In this document: piece after piece, positions 11,968 to 32,815 of the stretch | Layout: each line of letters begins with the position of its first letter | How positions within the stretch are numbered: position 1 is the first letter of the stretch | Virus record (IMG/VR): IMGVR_UViG_3300044295_000323 | Span: 1-64,000 of that record | From: a virus | Direction: 5' to 3' (one strand) | Length of the DNA stretch: 64,000 bases | Notes under the pieces: generated by a model | Told to the model about the DNA's origin: nothing | Databases searched by the model: none | The model's input: the letters and a program-made list of their open reading frames with translations, nothing else | Made by a program: the position numbers and the translations under genes

Positions 11968-12399
11968 CTAGGCACCTCCTGTCAGTCGAGCGGCAGCAAC
12001 GGCCGCCATAATGGACTTCTCACTCGTGAGCCACTTGGTTGCTTGCCACTCCCCTTGTTCGAGCCAGAGGACTTTGTAGCGATCCTTGGGCCCGTAGGCG
12101 TGGCCCATGAGCCAGATGCCGTTATTCCAGACGACAGTGTTTCTCTCCAGCCTTGTCCCGTGCTTCCAGAACCACGTCCCGTCGCCTCCTTCGGACCACG
12201 CGTTGAATGTCTTCCGAAGACCTGGCGGGCGAGCCGGCTGACGTGACTTGATCACTGACGCGTCAGAATTCCATGGTGGTTTTGTCACAGCTTGCGCCAC
12301 TATGCGTGACGTAATCTGCTGCTGGAGTTGCTTTACAGCAGCGAGCTTGCCAAGCACGATGGTCTTCACGTGCCGTGAGACGAAGGACTTGGTCGCCAT
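11968..12399 (-). CDS. RLTGE-family paralogue, 143 aa
   Basis: An N-terminal basic helix of about 40 residues is followed by the Trp-rich region (TWFWKHGTRLERNTVVWNN, GIWLMGHAYG) and the closing helix SIMAAVAAARLTGGA. This fits the family in full. The start at 12399 overlaps the stop of the GP88-like gene (TAATG). Confidence 0.75.
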   Translation of the reverse strand: MATKSFVSRHVKTIVLGKLAAVKQLQQQITSRIVAQAVTKPPWNSDASVIKSRQPARPPGLRKTFNAWSEGGDGTWFWKHGTRLERNTVVWNNGIWLMGHAYGPKDRYKVLWLEQGEWQATKWLTSEKSIMAAVAAARLTGGA

Positions 12400-13130
12400 T
12401 AGCGCACCAGCTCCGTCTTGCCGTCGTGAACGAAGCCGCCCTTGACACCCTCGGCCATACGGGCATTAGAGCCCTTCCACCGCAAGCCCACCACCACGCC
12501 CTCAGGATCGAGAAACCGCAAGTCGTCCTTGTCCCCGTCGACGACCCGGAGCCACTTGCCCTGGACCTTCAACTTGGCCGGCAGCTTCCCATCCCGCCGC
12601 ACATTGAAGACGACAGCCATGTTGATGCCGAACTGCAAGCAGTGTGCCAGGTCAGCCTTGGTCGTCTTCTCGCTCACGCTGTAGGTCAGGTGGTAGTTGT
12701 CGAGCACCCGGCGCCGGGGCACGGGGAGCTTGGTGTAGTCATAGAACTGCACCGTGGGATTCAGGTTGGCCAAGCTATGGGCCAGACCGGGCCGATCGGA
12801 GAGCAGGTTCGGCCGGACCGCCAGCTTCTTGTGCGTCTTGGCCAAGGCCTTGATCTCCTTGTCGACCTTCGCGACGAAGCCCTTGTAGTCAGTCATGTAC
12901 TCCTGGGTCCGACGCGCCCGTGCCTTGACGCTGGCAGGAAACACATTCATCCCCGTCTTAGCCAGACAGACGTCGGCACACGTGCCGGCCATGGCACACA
13001 TGGTCGGTAGTGTCTTGCCCAAGACGAGCCCCGCTTCCGTGGCCGGGCTCAGGTTCAGTCCCACGGTTTTCCAGCCCCGGGCCTTGGACTTGTCGAGCTT
13101 GTATTGTGAGGTTGTCAAGTAACTAGCCAT
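12399..13130 (-). CDS. GP88-like protein, 243 aa
   Basis: The N-terminal half has PTMCAMAGTCADVCLAKTG followed by a run of arginines (SVKARARRTQEYMTDYKGF), then AVRPNLLSDRPG and NPTVQFYDYTK and YHLTYSVSE. This order (Cys cluster, AR-x-x-RT, RxN, QFYDYTK, YHLT-S) is characteristic of the phage GP88-type family of unknown function. The clustered cysteines C45, C51 and C55 may bind metal. The family name is from memory of the pattern and should be checked with a profile. Confidence 0.6.
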   Translation of the reverse strand: MASYLTTSQYKLDKSKARGWKTVGLNLSPATEAGLVLGKTLPTMCAMAGTCADVCLAKTGMNVFPASVKARARRTQEYMTDYKGFVAKVDKEIKALAKTHKKLAVRPNLLSDRPGLAHSLANLNPTVQFYDYTKLPVPRRRVLDNYHLTYSVSEKTTKADLAHCLQFGINMAVVFNVRRDGKLPAKLKVQGKWLRVVDGDKDDLRFLDPEGVVVGLRWKGSNARMAEGVKGGFVHDGKTELVR

Positions 13131-13476: not shown

Positions 13477-14286
13477 CTACTTGCCCTCGCCTGTCATGCG
13501 AAAGATGGCACCCTCGGCCGCCAACGTCGACGTGTCCACGTCCGGCAGTTCGATCGTCGTGCGCTCGGACTTCTTGGGCTTAGTGTCTACTCGCCCCACG
13601 ATATCCTGTGGTACGTAGGCGCGGAACTGCGGCACCACCTTGATGATCTGGTTGACCGTCTTGTAGGTGTCGAGCAGCTTGGACACATCAGCCTGGATCT
13701 TCTCCCACCGATCACGAATCTGCTCGGCCTCATCCATGAGCTCGATGTGGCGAGAGAGTTCCGTCACGCCGGGCAACTGCGGATAGGCCTGCCGAATCGA
13801 TTCAAACATGGCGACCGTGATCTGTGGTGTGGACAAGCGGTTGTCTGCCACCGCCGAACATGGACGTGAGTAGGCTGCGTGGGACGCCGGCGCATGCAGG
13901 AAGTCCTGGATGTGCGTGTAGCGATGGTTGTCCCGGCTGGGCGGCTTATCCCATCGGACGCCTTCCTTCTCGCGAGCCAACAATCGACGGAGCTCCGATG
14001 CTGTGTAGTCGTTCGACAGGTAGTACTCGGTGGACTTCGGCACAAAGATCTTCTTGGTGATGACGATCAGCCGCTCCTCTTCACCAAACAGATCGAGCCA
14101 CCCCTTGGGGATCTTGTCGTAAAGATCCACGTGGGGGTACATGGACAGCCGGCTGATGAGCTCCGACATGTCCACGTTGGTCGTGTTGTTGTAGTCCGGC
14201 AGCTGCTCTTTCAGGGCGGTGGCGGTCATCTTCACCACCTGCTCGTCCACTCGCCGACGGACGTCTTTTGAAATCGTGACAATCAT
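13477..14286 (-). CDS. Hypothetical protein, 269 aa
   Basis: It starts at 14286 (MIVTISKDVRRR) after AAAGGAG. It is mainly helical with a central region LIVITKKIFVPKSTEYYLS and a His-rich loop (RDNHRYTHIQDFLHAPASHAAY). The second half (EQIRDRWEKIQADVSKLLDTY) suggests a coiled coil. No family is recognised. It lies between the GP88-like gene and the VWA/MoxR block and may work with either. Confidence 0.7.
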   Translation of the reverse strand: MIVTISKDVRRRVDEQVVKMTATALKEQLPDYNNTTNVDMSELISRLSMYPHVDLYDKIPKGWLDLFGEEERLIVITKKIFVPKSTEYYLSNDYTASELRRLLAREKEGVRWDKPPSRDNHRYTHIQDFLHAPASHAAYSRPCSAVADNRLSTPQITVAMFESIRQAYPQLPGVTELSRHIELMDEAEQIRDRWEKIQADVSKLLDTYKTVNQIIKVVPQFRAYVPQDIVGRVDTKPKKSERTTIELPDVDTSTLAAEGAIFRMTGEGK

Positions 14287-14299
14287 GTGTGACTCCTTT

Positions 14300-14848
14300 C
14301 TAGAGTTCCAACTGGAACGGTTGTGCGGTCCGAAGCTGATTGGCCAAACGCTTACGCTTCTCTTTCTGCGCTGAGTCCAAGCCAGGGTTGACAATCGCGG
14401 CGGCCTTCGCGACAAACAGCTTGTCATAGAAGTACAAGTGACCGTTCCGCAGTGCCTGTCCATCCAACGTGCCTATGTTATTGTGGTACGTGCGCTGGAT
14501 GGAGTTGATCTGCGGCGCAGACAAGTTCTTGCCCAGCAAGTAGGCAGCATTGTCGGCCGCGCATAGGTCCTTCAACGCCTTGATCTGTTCCGGCGCTAAC
14601 GTCTTGGGGTTCACCGAGAAGTAGGTGTCGTAGCCACGTAGGCCCAAATTGAGGGTGGCGCTCAGACGATGGGCGATCTTGTAGGCTTCACCCCGGCCCA
14701 CACTATAGCCCTCTTCCAGCATCTTGATCACCGAGGAGCGAATCCTCGGTGAGAGTTTGCCGCCGTCAAAAACGGCGCTAGTGATGACGAGACCGGGCGT
14801 GCCGGCAAGTGCGCTCCATGCGAGTTGCTGTTCTCTCTCTTTATCCAT
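14300..14848 (-). CDS. Hypothetical protein, 182 aa
   Basis: I chose the ATG at 14848, with AAAGGA eight bases upstream and overlapping the previous TAA, over the ATG at 14857. The protein is helical (DSAQKEKRKRLANQLRTAQ) with a middle region rich in Asn and Tyr (RTYHNNIGTLDGQALRNGHLY). No motif is recognised. Confidence 0.65.
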   Translation of the reverse strand: MDKEREQQLAWSALAGTPGLVITSAVFDGGKLSPRIRSSVIKMLEEGYSVGRGEAYKIAHRLSATLNLGLRGYDTYFSVNPKTLAPEQIKALKDLCAADNAAYLLGKNLSAPQINSIQRTYHNNIGTLDGQALRNGHLYFYDKLFVAKAAAIVNPGLDSAQKEKRKRLANQLRTAQPFQLEL

Positions 14849-15128
14849 TTTGATCATCCTTTCCTGTGAGTCTCCACACGATGTACTTCCGCTTGAGTTC
14901 TCGAAGCGTCTTGGCTTTCACGGTGCACATGGGATCTTTGCCGTTTATGTATTCAAGCTCCCAACGATACGCCATTTTTCTGCGTTTCTGATGCAGCCAC
15001 ATCCAACACACAAGGTTGGGGTTGTCAGTATAAGGTCCAAAGAACCAGTACTTTATGGCGGTTCCTTGCATCCGCACTGGCCGTTCATGAATAATCGAGG
15101 CAACGGCCCTATCAAGTCGCGTGATCAT
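14841..15128 (-). CDS. RLTGE-family paralogue, 95 aa
   Basis: The body shows the family style (IKYWFFGPYTDN, VCWMWLHQKRRKMAYRWELEY) and ends with the helix LRELKRKYIVWRLTGKDD. Start and stop overlap both neighbouring members, so three paralogues are translated as a coupled series (14841, 15125, 15507). The function is unknown. Confidence 0.8.
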   Translation of the reverse strand: MITRLDRAVASIIHERPVRMQGTAIKYWFFGPYTDNPNLVCWMWLHQKRRKMAYRWELEYINGKDPMCTVKAKTLRELKRKYIVWRLTGKDDQNG

Positions 15129-15857: not shown

Positions 15858-17153
15858 CTACTTCTCCTCGTGGATCGAGAAGGGGACGTGCTCGCCGTAG
15901 CCGGGCACGACCTGGGACGAGACGCACCACACCACGGGCACATCCACCGGACTGCTCGTGCTGAAGTCCGTGTAGCCATCCGTCAGGCAGACGATCACCT
16001 CGACGTCTTGCAGCTTCTTCGCAATCCACCGGAAGCCCGCTTCCATATCGGTGCCACCGCCGGAGTAGAACTCCAGCTTCACCTCGTCGCCCTGCGCCGG
16101 CACGAACTCCAGGTGCTTCTGGACCTGGGTGTCCACATAGAGGACATGCACCTTGCTGGGGTTGCACTGCTCAATGATGCGTGCCATGTGGCCGGCGTAG
16201 TGCCGCAGTTCGATCTCGGAGATCGAGCCCGACACGTCGATCTGCAGGCAGATCTCGCCCATCATGGGCGTCTTGCCCACCCACGGCAGGTAGTGCTCGG
16301 TGTAGCGACGGTTGCGCTTGGCCCACGTGGACTCTGACCGGGCGAACGAGGTCATGTAGCGTTCGAGCTTCTCGTACCACGGCACCTTAGACTCGATCAG
16401 TTCGGCCGCCCACTTGCCAATGGCACCGGGCAGCTTGCCCTGCATCTTGGCCGTCTGGGTGGCCTGCGCGATAGCGACCTTCATCTCGGCCTCCTGCTGC
16501 TTGGCCTGATCGGCCGTCATCGGGCCGCCCTTCTGCACCAGGTCACGGCCCACCCCGCCGATGGCCTGCCCGTGTCCGGGGCACTGGCAGGGTTGCCCAC
16601 CCTTGCCGTGCTTGTGCTGCTTGGACTTCGACTTGCCCTGGCCCTGCTTGGACTGCTGTTGGCCCTGGCCCTGACCATCTTGCCCGCCATCGCCGTCCTG
16701 GCCTCCGCCCTGCTGCTGGTCGCCCACTTCGCCGCCGCACTGGGCGCACTTCACGGGCGGCAGTTCGTTGTAGATCTGGTCGGTCGTCTTGTCCTTGCTG
16801 CCCGGCATGTCGATGCCGCCCTCGATCATCTTGCCGATGCCGTCCTGCTTGAGCAAGTCGTTGATGAACGCATCGCCGGCGATGTTCCACTTCAGCTGGT
16901 GCCGATGGCCGAGACGTCCGGCGTGCTGGCACACCACGTGCATGACCTCATGGGCGAGGAGGAAGATCACTTCTTCCACGTCCATGTTCTCGATGAACTT
17001 GGGGTTGTAGTAGATCTGTCCCCACTGATCGACGGCCGCCGTCGGGCACCACGGTTCGGTGACGGCGACGAGGGGACGTCTCAGCAAGATCGAGGCGAAG
17101 AACGGGTGCTGAAACACCATGTGCGCCTTAGCGCGTTCGAGAACTGTTGCCAT
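15858..17153 (-). CDS. Metallopeptidase-like plus VWA domain protein (DUF2201 type), 431 aa
   Basis: The N-terminal domain has HEVMH (residues 68-72, zinc-metallopeptidase HExxH) followed by WNIAGDAFIN, the DUF2201 N-terminal pattern. A linker (about 140-200) of Gln, Gly, Asp and Lys joins it to a C-terminal VWA domain with an intact MIDAS: DVSGS at 306-310, the GGGTD loop, and LTDGYTD. VWA proteins bind partner proteins through a metal. Paired with a MoxR ATPase (17780-18805) they form a chaperone-like remodelling unit in bacteria. Start 17153 (MATVLERA) follows AAGGAG. The pair is separated here by two small genes. Confidence 0.85.
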   Translation of the reverse strand: MATVLERAKAHMVFQHPFFASILLRRPLVAVTEPWCPTAAVDQWGQIYYNPKFIENMDVEEVIFLLAHEVMHVVCQHAGRLGHRHQLKWNIAGDAFINDLLKQDGIGKMIEGGIDMPGSKDKTTDQIYNELPPVKCAQCGGEVGDQQQGGGQDGDGGQDGQGQGQQQSKQGQGKSKSKQHKHGKGGQPCQCPGHGQAIGGVGRDLVQKGGPMTADQAKQQEAEMKVAIAQATQTAKMQGKLPGAIGKWAAELIESKVPWYEKLERYMTSFARSESTWAKRNRRYTEHYLPWVGKTPMMGEICLQIDVSGSISEIELRHYAGHMARIIEQCNPSKVHVLYVDTQVQKHLEFVPAQGDEVKLEFYSGGGTDMEAGFRWIAKKLQDVEVIVCLTDGYTDFSTSSPVDVPVVWCVSSQVVPGYGEHVPFSIHEEK

Positions 17154-17207
17154 TGGATTACGCTCCTTCCTGAACACTGACGTTGTTGTTATTCACGTTT
17201 CCCACTG

Positions 17208-17393
17208 CTACCACATAACTCCTTGTCCGGCGAGGTAGAAGAACCACGCCGCGAATCCGAAACAGACTAATGCGATCCACCCGGTGCCGATCCGACCCAG
17301 CATCATGTTGTCTGACATGAGGAACATCCACGCGTAGAAGTTCCAGCACCACACCAGACCGCACGCGACTTGTGACCACTTACTCCACGACAC
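17208..17393 (-). CDS. Two-span membrane protein, 61 aa
   Basis: The GTG at 17393 has GGAG six bases upstream and overlaps the stop of the previous gene. Two hydrophobic segments (VWCWNFYAWMFLM at about 14-26 and WIALVCFGFAAWFFYLAG at about 39-56) make a small hairpin membrane protein. It lies between the VWA and MoxR genes, so it might give that module a membrane anchor; this is speculation from position. Confidence 0.6.
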   Translation of the reverse strand: MSWSKWSQVACGLVWCWNFYAWMFLMSDNMMLGRIGTGWIALVCFGFAAWFFYLAGQGVMW

Positions 17394-17793
17394 GCGTGAC
17401 TCCTTTCTTCTGTGTAGCCGATGCTACAGGCTCAAACTCGCCGGTCAACTTGAACACCGTCATGATCGCCACCACGTCTTCATCGGTGCGGCAGGCGACG
17501 TTCTTGGTCCCAGTACCGACATGATCAACAAGTCGAAGGACCCACCGGCGCCCAGTTCGTGAACCTTCCACTGGGCCTAGTACTCCTGGAGAATAGTCAC
17601 TACTCCAGGTACGGAACTCGTCCGCCGTGGTGATGAAGATCCCCAGCTTTATATCGTTTTGCCGGCGATCACCCGGTTCTCTGTAGATCTGCCACCAGTC
17701 CCTAGCAACTGGACCGGGGGAGGTCAGGGGTACCGGAATCGGTACCCCTGAGTTGGTCGTCCGAACGATGCCATCTGGATTAGAAGATGACAT
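17380..17793 (-). CDS. RLTGE-family paralogue, 137 aa
   Basis: The core begins at RDWWQIYREPGDRRQNDIKL, continues GRRWVLRLVDHVGTG, and ends VVAIMTVFKLTGEFEPV with a 14-residue extension. The ATG at 17793 overlaps the MoxR stop. Two unusual DNA elements lie inside the gene: an 11-bp hairpin near the start (17724-17751) and a palindrome of the array near the end (17413-17428). Confidence 0.75.
   Translation of the reverse strand: MSSSNPDGIVRTTNSGVPIPVPLTSPGPVARDWWQIYREPGDRRQNDIKLGIFITTADEFRTWSSDYSPGVLGPVEGSRTGRRWVLRLVDHVGTGTKNVACRTDEDVVAIMTVFKLTGEFEPVASATQKKGVTRVVE
17413..17428. promoter_or_regulatory. Palindrome 2 of the array, inside a coding region
   Basis: TGTAGCCGATGCTACA. One position in the left arm departs from the consensus. 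It lies in the last codons of the 17380-17793 gene and 20 bases upstream of the GTG of the next gene, the same position relative to a start codon as the intergenic copies. Confidence 0.55.
17724..17751. repeat. 11-bp perfect inverted repeat near a gene start
   Basis: TCAGGGGTACC, loop GGAATC, GGTACCCCTGA. It lies 43-70 bases into the coding sequence of the 17380-17793 gene. It would fold as a stable RNA hairpin and could slow translation or be a processing site. Confidence 0.5.
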
Positions 17794-18805
17794 CGGAGTT
17801 CTTCACCGTCCAGTCGATGAAGGCCTTGTTAGAGCGGAGCTTCTTGTCCCGCACCAGCGCGTCCTTCACGCACAGCACGCTGAATTCCTTGGGCATCCGC
17901 GCCATGTAGTCGAGGACGAGGTTAAAGTTGGCCGGCGTGGCCTTGTTCGCCAACGCACCCGAGATGGCGTACTGTGTCGCCGGGTCGGTCGGGACCTTGG
18001 CCTTCTGCGGATTCTTCAACACCTCGTCCAAGTCCGGGAGGTTCATGTAGATGCGGCGGAAGCCGATGTACTCGGCGGCCGCACCCTCGCCCACCTCGCC
18101 CGCCACGTTGCCCATGTAGCAGGCTTCGTCGAGTGTGTCCGGAATCAGGCTGACCTTCTCCCAGCTACGGGGCGTCGGATTGCTGCTGCGGTTCGGGTCG
18201 AAGTCGAACAGCAGGTTCGGCTTGAAGCGCAGGAACTGGATCATGTCGGTGGGCAGGCCGTTCGGCTGGGCGAAGCCCTCAATCCAGTCGTCCAGGTTCA
18301 CGTCGAAGTGGAGCATGCGGACGCGGTTGCCAAGCTTCGTCGACAGGCGATTGGCGCCCGACTTGTCCTCAGTGCGGTTGCCCGTGCAGACCACGTAAAG
18401 TTCGTCCGTGAGCTGCAGGTCGCCGACCCGCTTCTCCAACAGCAGGCCCGAGAGAACGTTCTGCACCGGCATTGTGCTGTCAGTGAACTCGTCCAAGATC
18501 AGGCTCGCCGGCCCCGTCCCCTTGCGGATGTTGTAGAGGATGGACGGCGGCACCCAACGCACCGACTCGCCACTCAGCTCCGGCAGCCCGAGAAAGTCGC
18601 ACGTGTCGAGGTGGCTCGGGTGCATGAACAACTGGCGCTCCTTGGGAATCGCCTTGCCGTCCGACGCCACGAGTTCCTTGATCGCGTCCTTGGCCACGCT
18701 CGTCTTGCCACCGCCGGGCGCGCCGGTGATGAGGAAGCGGACTTCGTGACCACGGGGAGCCGCGAACTGGGCGGCGAGGGACTTCTTGATTTGAGTGTAG
18801 CGCAT
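17780..18805 (-). CDS. MoxR-like AAA+ ATPase, 341 aa
   Basis: Walker A GAPGGGKT is at residues 28-35, Walker B SLILDEF at about 100, and the sensor-1 region VVCTGNRTED is followed by an arginine-rich loop (KLGNRVRMLHF). The layout is that of MoxR-family AAA+ ATPases, which act with VWA-domain partners to remodel or load metals into target complexes. The partner at 15858 supports this. In phages the target is unknown. The ATG at 18805 has GGAG upstream and is preceded by a dyad at 18868-18888. Confidence 0.85.
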   Translation of the reverse strand: MRYTQIKKSLAAQFAAPRGHEVRFLITGAPGGGKTSVAKDAIKELVASDGKAIPKERQLFMHPSHLDTCDFLGLPELSGESVRWVPPSILYNIRKGTGPASLILDEFTDSTMPVQNVLSGLLLEKRVGDLQLTDELYVVCTGNRTEDKSGANRLSTKLGNRVRMLHFDVNLDDWIEGFAQPNGLPTDMIQFLRFKPNLLFDFDPNRSSNPTPRSWEKVSLIPDTLDEACYMGNVAGEVGEGAAAEYIGFRRIYMNLPDLDEVLKNPQKAKVPTDPATQYAISGALANKATPANFNLVLDYMARMPKEFSVLCVKDALVRDKKLRSNKAFIDWTVKNSDVIF

Positions 18806-32786: not shown

Positions 32787-32815
32787 TTGACTTTAGCCAC
32801 AAGATGTGGTAGACT
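32787..32815 (+). promoter_or_regulatory. Sigma70-type promoter for scaffold and capsid genes
   Basis: TTGACT (32787-32792), 17-bp spacer containing CCACAAGATGTGG, TAGACT (32810-32815). It is almost identical to the promoter at 27722. It begins ten bases after the portal stop and leads into a leader of about 160 bases. Confidence 0.8.

Follow-up and report, generated by a model that had tools for sequence, protein, structure and literature searches.

A MoxR-type AAA+ ATPase and a zincin-VWA protein of the N4 gp24/gp25 type, encoded within a larger conserved gene set of phages: a probable replication-phase remodelling pair

The genes gp24 and gp25 of phage N4 are core genes of the N4-like phages and are transcribed in N4 in the middle period, and in roseophage RPP1 structural proteins are encoded near the gp24/25 homologues (PMC4193335). 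In the group 2.2 jumbo phages, a MoxR ATPase is accompanied by a metallopeptidase-vWA fusion protein, and a role in virion assembly has been proposed (Iyer et al. 2021, PMC7824862). For the NorQD system it has been described that a finger of the VWA domain enters the AAA pore and that ATP hydrolysis twists the VWA domain, across a linker, relative to the N-terminal domain (PMC13036017). The locus described in this study, on the minus strand of the window (the whole stretch of 64,000 nucleotides analysed, part of a virus record of 64,896 bases), encodes an AAA plus zincin-VWA pair of an already known kind, the N4 gp24/gp25 type. The genes of the locus and two genes further downstream, as obtained from simple gene calls made without Prodigal, are as follows:

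17780..18805, minus strand: MoxR-type AAA+ ATPase of 341 aa (AAA_5; PHROG 1297; N4 gp24-like), assigned from Pfam, PHROG and PDB profile matches
17380..17793, minus strand: P0003, an orphan of 137 aa with a C-terminal KLTGE tail; no Pfam or PHROG match, one paralogue
17208..17393, minus strand: hydrophobic ORF of 61 aa, putative small membrane protein; GTG start, Shine-Dalgarno sequence AAAGGAG
15858..17153, minus strand: zincin (DUF2201_N) plus VWA (DUF2201) protein of 431 aa (PHROG 1314; N4 gp25-like), assigned from Pfam, PHROG and AF2
14300..14857, minus strand: protein of 185 aa, cluster C9, found by the profile of relatives at 1.7e-10
13477..14286, minus strand: Nmad5-type protein of 269 aa, cluster C0, C-terminus RMTGEGK, found at 6.5e-21 by a profile built solely on close relatives

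The first four genes are transcribed in the order AAA (18805-17780), P0003 (17793-17380), 61-aa ORF (17393-17208) and VWA (17153-15858). Overlaps of 14 nt are present between AAA and P0003 and between P0003 and the hydrophobic ORF, but the VWA gene, starting at ATG 17153 with a good Shine-Dalgarno sequence, is set apart from the hydrophobic ORF by 54 nt, so that the description of all these genes as overlapping, given in the initial annotation, has to be corrected for this junction.

As judged from its sequence, the product of 17780..18805 is a MoxR/AAA_5 ATPase, for which a hexameric form and ATPase activity are predicted. It matches Pfam AAA_5 at 1.2e-4 (22.5 bits against a cut-off of 22 bits) and PHROG 1297 at 2.8e-64, and carries the Walker A/B, sensor and arginine residues, including sensor 2 and the arginine finger; among 14 homologues, Walker A/B, sensor 1 N143, R161 and R213 are all invariant. 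When the family profile was compared with PDB, midasin Rea1 was the best solved relative (1.6e-25), and NorQ was matched at 2.5e-4.

For the VWA protein, Pfam matches were obtained with DUF2201_N (PF13203) at 1e-45 and with the DUF2201 VWA-like domain (PF09967) at 2.7e-19, together with a match to PHROG 1314 at 4.9e-84. The zincin motif H68-E-x-x-H72 and the complete MIDAS, consisting of D306, S308 and S310 (DxSxS), T368 and D392, are intact as had been noted at the outset, and comparison of 35 homologues indicates that H68, H72, N90, D94 and N98 of the zincin and all the MIDAS residues are invariant in the whole set, and that the catalytic Glu position, E69, is kept in 34. The zincin profile matches weakly the proabylysin-type MJ1213 (6e-4). 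The AF2 model of the protein has a pLDDT of 83, and a Gly/Gln-rich disordered linker of about residues 140-210 lies between the zincin and VWA domains. The model of the VWA domain (residues 295-429) matches VWA folds of PDB, including MDN1-MIDAS, at Z about 11-13; for residues 1-130, no solved zincin fold was among the PDB fold matches listed, the second look at which covered the VWA domain only. The label 'HNH endonuclease', attached to PHROG 1314 and to many GenBank phage records, was set aside, as Pfam gives DUF2201_N plus VWA instead and no HNH family was detected in the Pfam scan up to E 1; this name of the zincin-VWA family is probably a propagated misannotation. The window protein also carries in its linker the Cys pairs CAQC (residues 136-139) and CQC (189-191) with His nearby, which are absent from nine other homologues checked and possibly form an extra metal-binding ribbon.

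Compared with the N4 gp24/gp25 pair (Schitoviridae, PHROG 1297/1314), the window pair agrees in both families, gene order, strand and location near DNA polymerase, but the identity is about 26-34%, the N4 relatives are mostly without DUF3150- and Nmad5-type genes, and the gap of the window pair holds two orphans. The group 2.2 jumbo phages share the N-terminal zincin-vWA fusion paired with MoxR (PMC7824862), but the context is that of structural genes in the jumbo phages and of replication genes in the window. NorQ-NorD of Paracoccus (PMC13036017) and midasin/Rea1 likewise combine an AAA_5-type ring with a MIDAS-bearing VWA domain, and the AAA profile matches both, but NorD and midasin are without a zincin domain of the phage kind and have NOR and pre-60S particles as clients. 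Judging from the model, the phage protein would follow the same plan as NorQD, except that its N-terminal domain is a zincin and its linker a disordered Gly/Gln stretch. In Synechococcus phage MinM2 and the Planktothrix phages (65,014 bp), a MoxR gene, a small gene, a DUF3150 gene, three small genes and the VWA gene follow each other on one strand as in a similar locus, but here DUF3150 is kept and an Nmad5-type gene was not found.

Relatives of each of the two proteins are present in hundreds of phage records, and a total of 151 loci with both AAA and VWA genes was collected from IMG/VR and phage records. A scan of viral contigs with the single VWA sequence gave no relatives, genome contigs gave only distant relatives in Bacilli MAGs, and nothing informative was obtained from NCBIfam and PADLOC. 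As read, 149 of the 151 loci have the AAA gene ahead of the VWA gene with both on one strand; one of the two exceptions is the window's own locus in reverse, and after correction the order is kept in 150, leaving a single real exception. The initial annotation had proposed a MoxR-type ATPase paired with a VWA partner bearing a metallopeptidase-like domain, and this is borne out by the Pfam and PHROG matches and by the gene order, the pair being kept across phages. The possibility of random association in relatives, raised in the same annotation, does not apply to the AAA-VWA pair, but it does apply to the two genes enclosed by the pair in the window.

After analysis of 83 non-redundant loci, the AAA-VWA gap was found to contain a DUF3150-type or Nmad5-type gene in 41, other genes in 27, and almost no gap was left in 15. 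When loci with 50-80% VWA identity are compared in pairs, the larger gap genes (DUF3150- or Nmad5-type) of the two loci belong to one family in 882 of 882 comparable pairs, whereas for the small inserts this is so in only 44 of 269, indicating that the larger gap genes are stable and the small inserts labile. In the closest relatives found (loci L018-L028, with VWA proteins 44-59% identical to that of the window), the order is AAA - C1 - VWA - C0, and in L018, L019, L023 and L024 a member of the C9 family is located directly before VWA, between AAA and VWA. The C1 proteins, about 275-300 aa in length, are DUF3150-like (PF11348), with matches at E of 0.1 or lower for 8 of 23 members (down to 1.2e-7) and matches below threshold for several members; the C0 proteins, about 220-280 aa, are Nmad5-like (PF18757), with matches at E of 0.1 or lower for 26 of 45 members (down to 1.4e-12). 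No relatedness between C0 and C1 was detectable (hhalign probability 0.6%). With a model of the Nmad5-type protein (pLDDT 69), the fold search of PDB gave no confident match, and the matches in BFVD include Nmad proteins, weakly. On this comparison, the larger conserved set of the clade is AAA - DUF3150 - VWA - Nmad5, followed in most loci by DNA polymerase A. In N4 and most Schitoviridae tested, neither DUF3150- nor Nmad5-type genes were found, indicating that these partners are clade-specific. Among the papers searched, we found none joining the AAA, DUF3150, VWA and Nmad5 families; this larger set of genes and its link with DNA polymerase appear to be unreported so far.

Within the window, the C0 protein (13477-14286) gives 19 bits against Pfam Nmad5, below the 27-bit cut-off, and it is recovered in a six-frame search at 2.7e-33 with a profile that includes the window member itself. 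The C0 and C9 homologues are both located downstream of VWA, C0 at a distance of 1.6 kb, and a downstream Nmad5-type gene is common to the close relatives and the window. Six-frame profile search of the window genome gave no homologue of C1 (DUF3150), and L024 is likewise without it. The window locus thus appears to be a variant of the set, in which DUF3150 is absent, Nmad5 is displaced downstream of VWA, and two orphans occupy the gap.

Neither P0003 nor the 61-aa ORF has a Pfam or PHROG match. The view of P0003 as one of a family of RLTGE paralogues stands for a single gene of the genome (20913-21236, E 2e-4), but the remaining RLTGE proteins of the window share with P0003 only the C-terminal helix and the LTG tail. 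No relatives of P0003 were found in nine related genomes, its comparison with 50,697 phage records gave chance matches only, and the P0003-type profile detected among the relatives only a gene of L024, at E 0.08, and nothing when compared with the profile of the small gene following AAA in L018, L022 and L023. A combined P0003 profile that recovered genes of L020 and L021 at 3e-5 was set aside, the grouping behind this profile being unproven. The 61-aa ORF, described before as a two-span membrane protein, does contain two hydrophobic stretches, of which the first, however, is weak (mean hydropathy over 17 residues of 1.4 or less, versus 2.0 for the second). Predicted membrane ORFs are not more frequent in AAA-VWA gaps than elsewhere (8 of 57 versus 140 of 879; Fisher p 0.85). 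Since no relatives of P0003 were found in the nine genomes and membrane ORFs are at the background rate in the gaps, P0003 and the 61-aa ORF are best read as passenger genes, inserted labilely between AAA and VWA.

Repeated sequences were also observed in the window. The palindrome GTAGC-N3..5-GCTAC is present at 14 sites, versus 0.2 expected, between 15828 and 26545, exclusively in the early minus-strand region (15828, 17414, 18871, 19438, 20601, 21444, 23005, 23839, 24540, 24825, 25201, 25654, 25833 and 26533), for the most part 17-66 nt ahead of the start of a gene; at the locus it is located upstream of AAA, in the end of P0003 upstream of the membrane ORF, and just after VWA. Since the arms do not vary and the loops measure 3-5 nt, the element may be a hairpin in the RNA or a regulatory site that is repeated. 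Another sequence, TTGACTTTNNCCACAAGATGTGGTAG, is present on the plus strand in two near-identical copies (27722-27747 and 32787-32812; none expected in shuffles), in front of or between the structural genes of that strand, and these copies are possibly late promoters or operators. The minus strand also encodes, at 12399-13130, a protein homologous to gene product 88 of mycobacteriophage (PF17338, 8.5e-32).

The Nmad5-type partner proteins end in an [RK]L[TSA]G-like tail, which is common to several small proteins of the window. The LTG tail was found in 9 of 22 early small genes, versus 112 of 3240 background genes. With the pattern [KRASHNQ][LIM][LMTSIA][GE] within the last 12 residues, 61 of 79 C0-type proteins were positive, versus 28 of 1049 other genes of the same loci, and within the window 8 of 27 minus-strand genes at 10-24 kb (including C0) were positive, versus 1 of 71 elsewhere (binomial 6e-6 against background). 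The figures for this pattern are descriptive, the motif having been picked after the sequences were seen, and outside the Nmad5-type family no enrichment was detected in related loci (28/1049, versus 44 for an inner control stretch). The shared tail appears non-random, but homology of the RLTGE proteins is not thereby established. As the one result in favour of the idea, the tail gives a hint that the machine meets small proteins; that it is a docking tag, recruiting a changeable set of small proteins as clients to the AAA/zincin-VWA machine, is highly improbable.

As to the role of the pair, its neighbours are informative. Of the 77 non-redundant loci in which the downstream sequence extends over 5 kb or more, 59 have DNA polymerase A downstream on the same strand, and none has it upstream. 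In the window, DNA polymerase A, a ribonucleotide reductase and a RecA/helicase-like AAA protein are encoded in the same minus-strand arm as the pair, the polymerase being about 20 kb from the pair if the genome is circular, and the plus strand carries the terminase, portal and major head genes. The linkage to DNA polymerase A, together with the location of the pair in an arm apart from the structural genes, favours a replication-phase role, and the locus is probably that of a phage replication-phase MoxR AAA+/zincin-VWA remodelling pair of the N4 gp24/gp25 type, included in the larger conserved set.

A virion-assembly chaperone combined with a maturation peptidase, the pair folding and clipping structural proteins, was proposed by Iyer et al. 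2021 (PMC7824862) by analogy with the MoxR-VWA pair of Acidianus two-tailed virus. The pair does adjoin virion genes in Klebsiella phage RaK2 and a gene annotated 'virion structural protein and packaging' in S-TIM5, and the location of structural protein genes near the gp24/25 homologues in RPP1 (PMC4193335) is in agreement; however, the polymerase linkage in 59 of 77 loci, the middle transcription in N4 (PMC4193335) and the position of the window pair in the early arm, on the strand opposite to the head and tail genes and apart from them, render this reading unlikely. Take-over of the host or counter-defence, with the zincin-VWA arm dismantling a host complex and Nmad5 protecting or modifying phage DNA, is very unlikely: the pair is core and not accessory in N4-like phages (PMC4193335), PADLOC gave no match, and no base-modification enzymes were recognised among the window genes scanned, even though the early position, the wide but patchy distribution, and work on Dhillonvirus that connects Nmad5 with DNA modification and with sensing through the Tmn defence system (PMC11846954) would fit. 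The membrane-linked machine of AAA, VWA, two-span protein and P0003 acting on RLTGE proteins, as originally suggested from four co-directional genes with two 14-nt overlaps and compatible with the tail common to Nmad5-type partners and small window proteins, is hardly credible, because neither insert is conserved (44 of 269 pairs in the same family, no P0003 relatives in nine genomes), membrane ORFs are not enriched in the gap, and P0003 is truly similar to one paralogue only.

For the replication-phase remodelling pair, a mode of action may be drawn from NorQ-NorD and midasin. The hexameric AAA ring would form a complex with its partner by gripping the VWA domain, and the MIDAS metal site would hold a client through an acidic ligand. 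Driven by ATP hydrolysis, the VWA domain would rotate relative to the zincin at the N-terminus, with the flexible Gly/Gln linker between the two, and by this movement the MIDAS-bound client would be remodelled or, by proteolysis, clipped. The client would most likely be a replication-phase protein or complex, with Nmad5 or DUF3150 perhaps as an adaptor.

Both N4 genes, gp24 and gp25, belong to the core of a large family of phages. The linkage to DNA polymerase A and the clade-specific linkage to DUF3150 and Nmad5 point to replication rather than virion assembly, and the wider conserved gene set makes the job of this machine easier to test.
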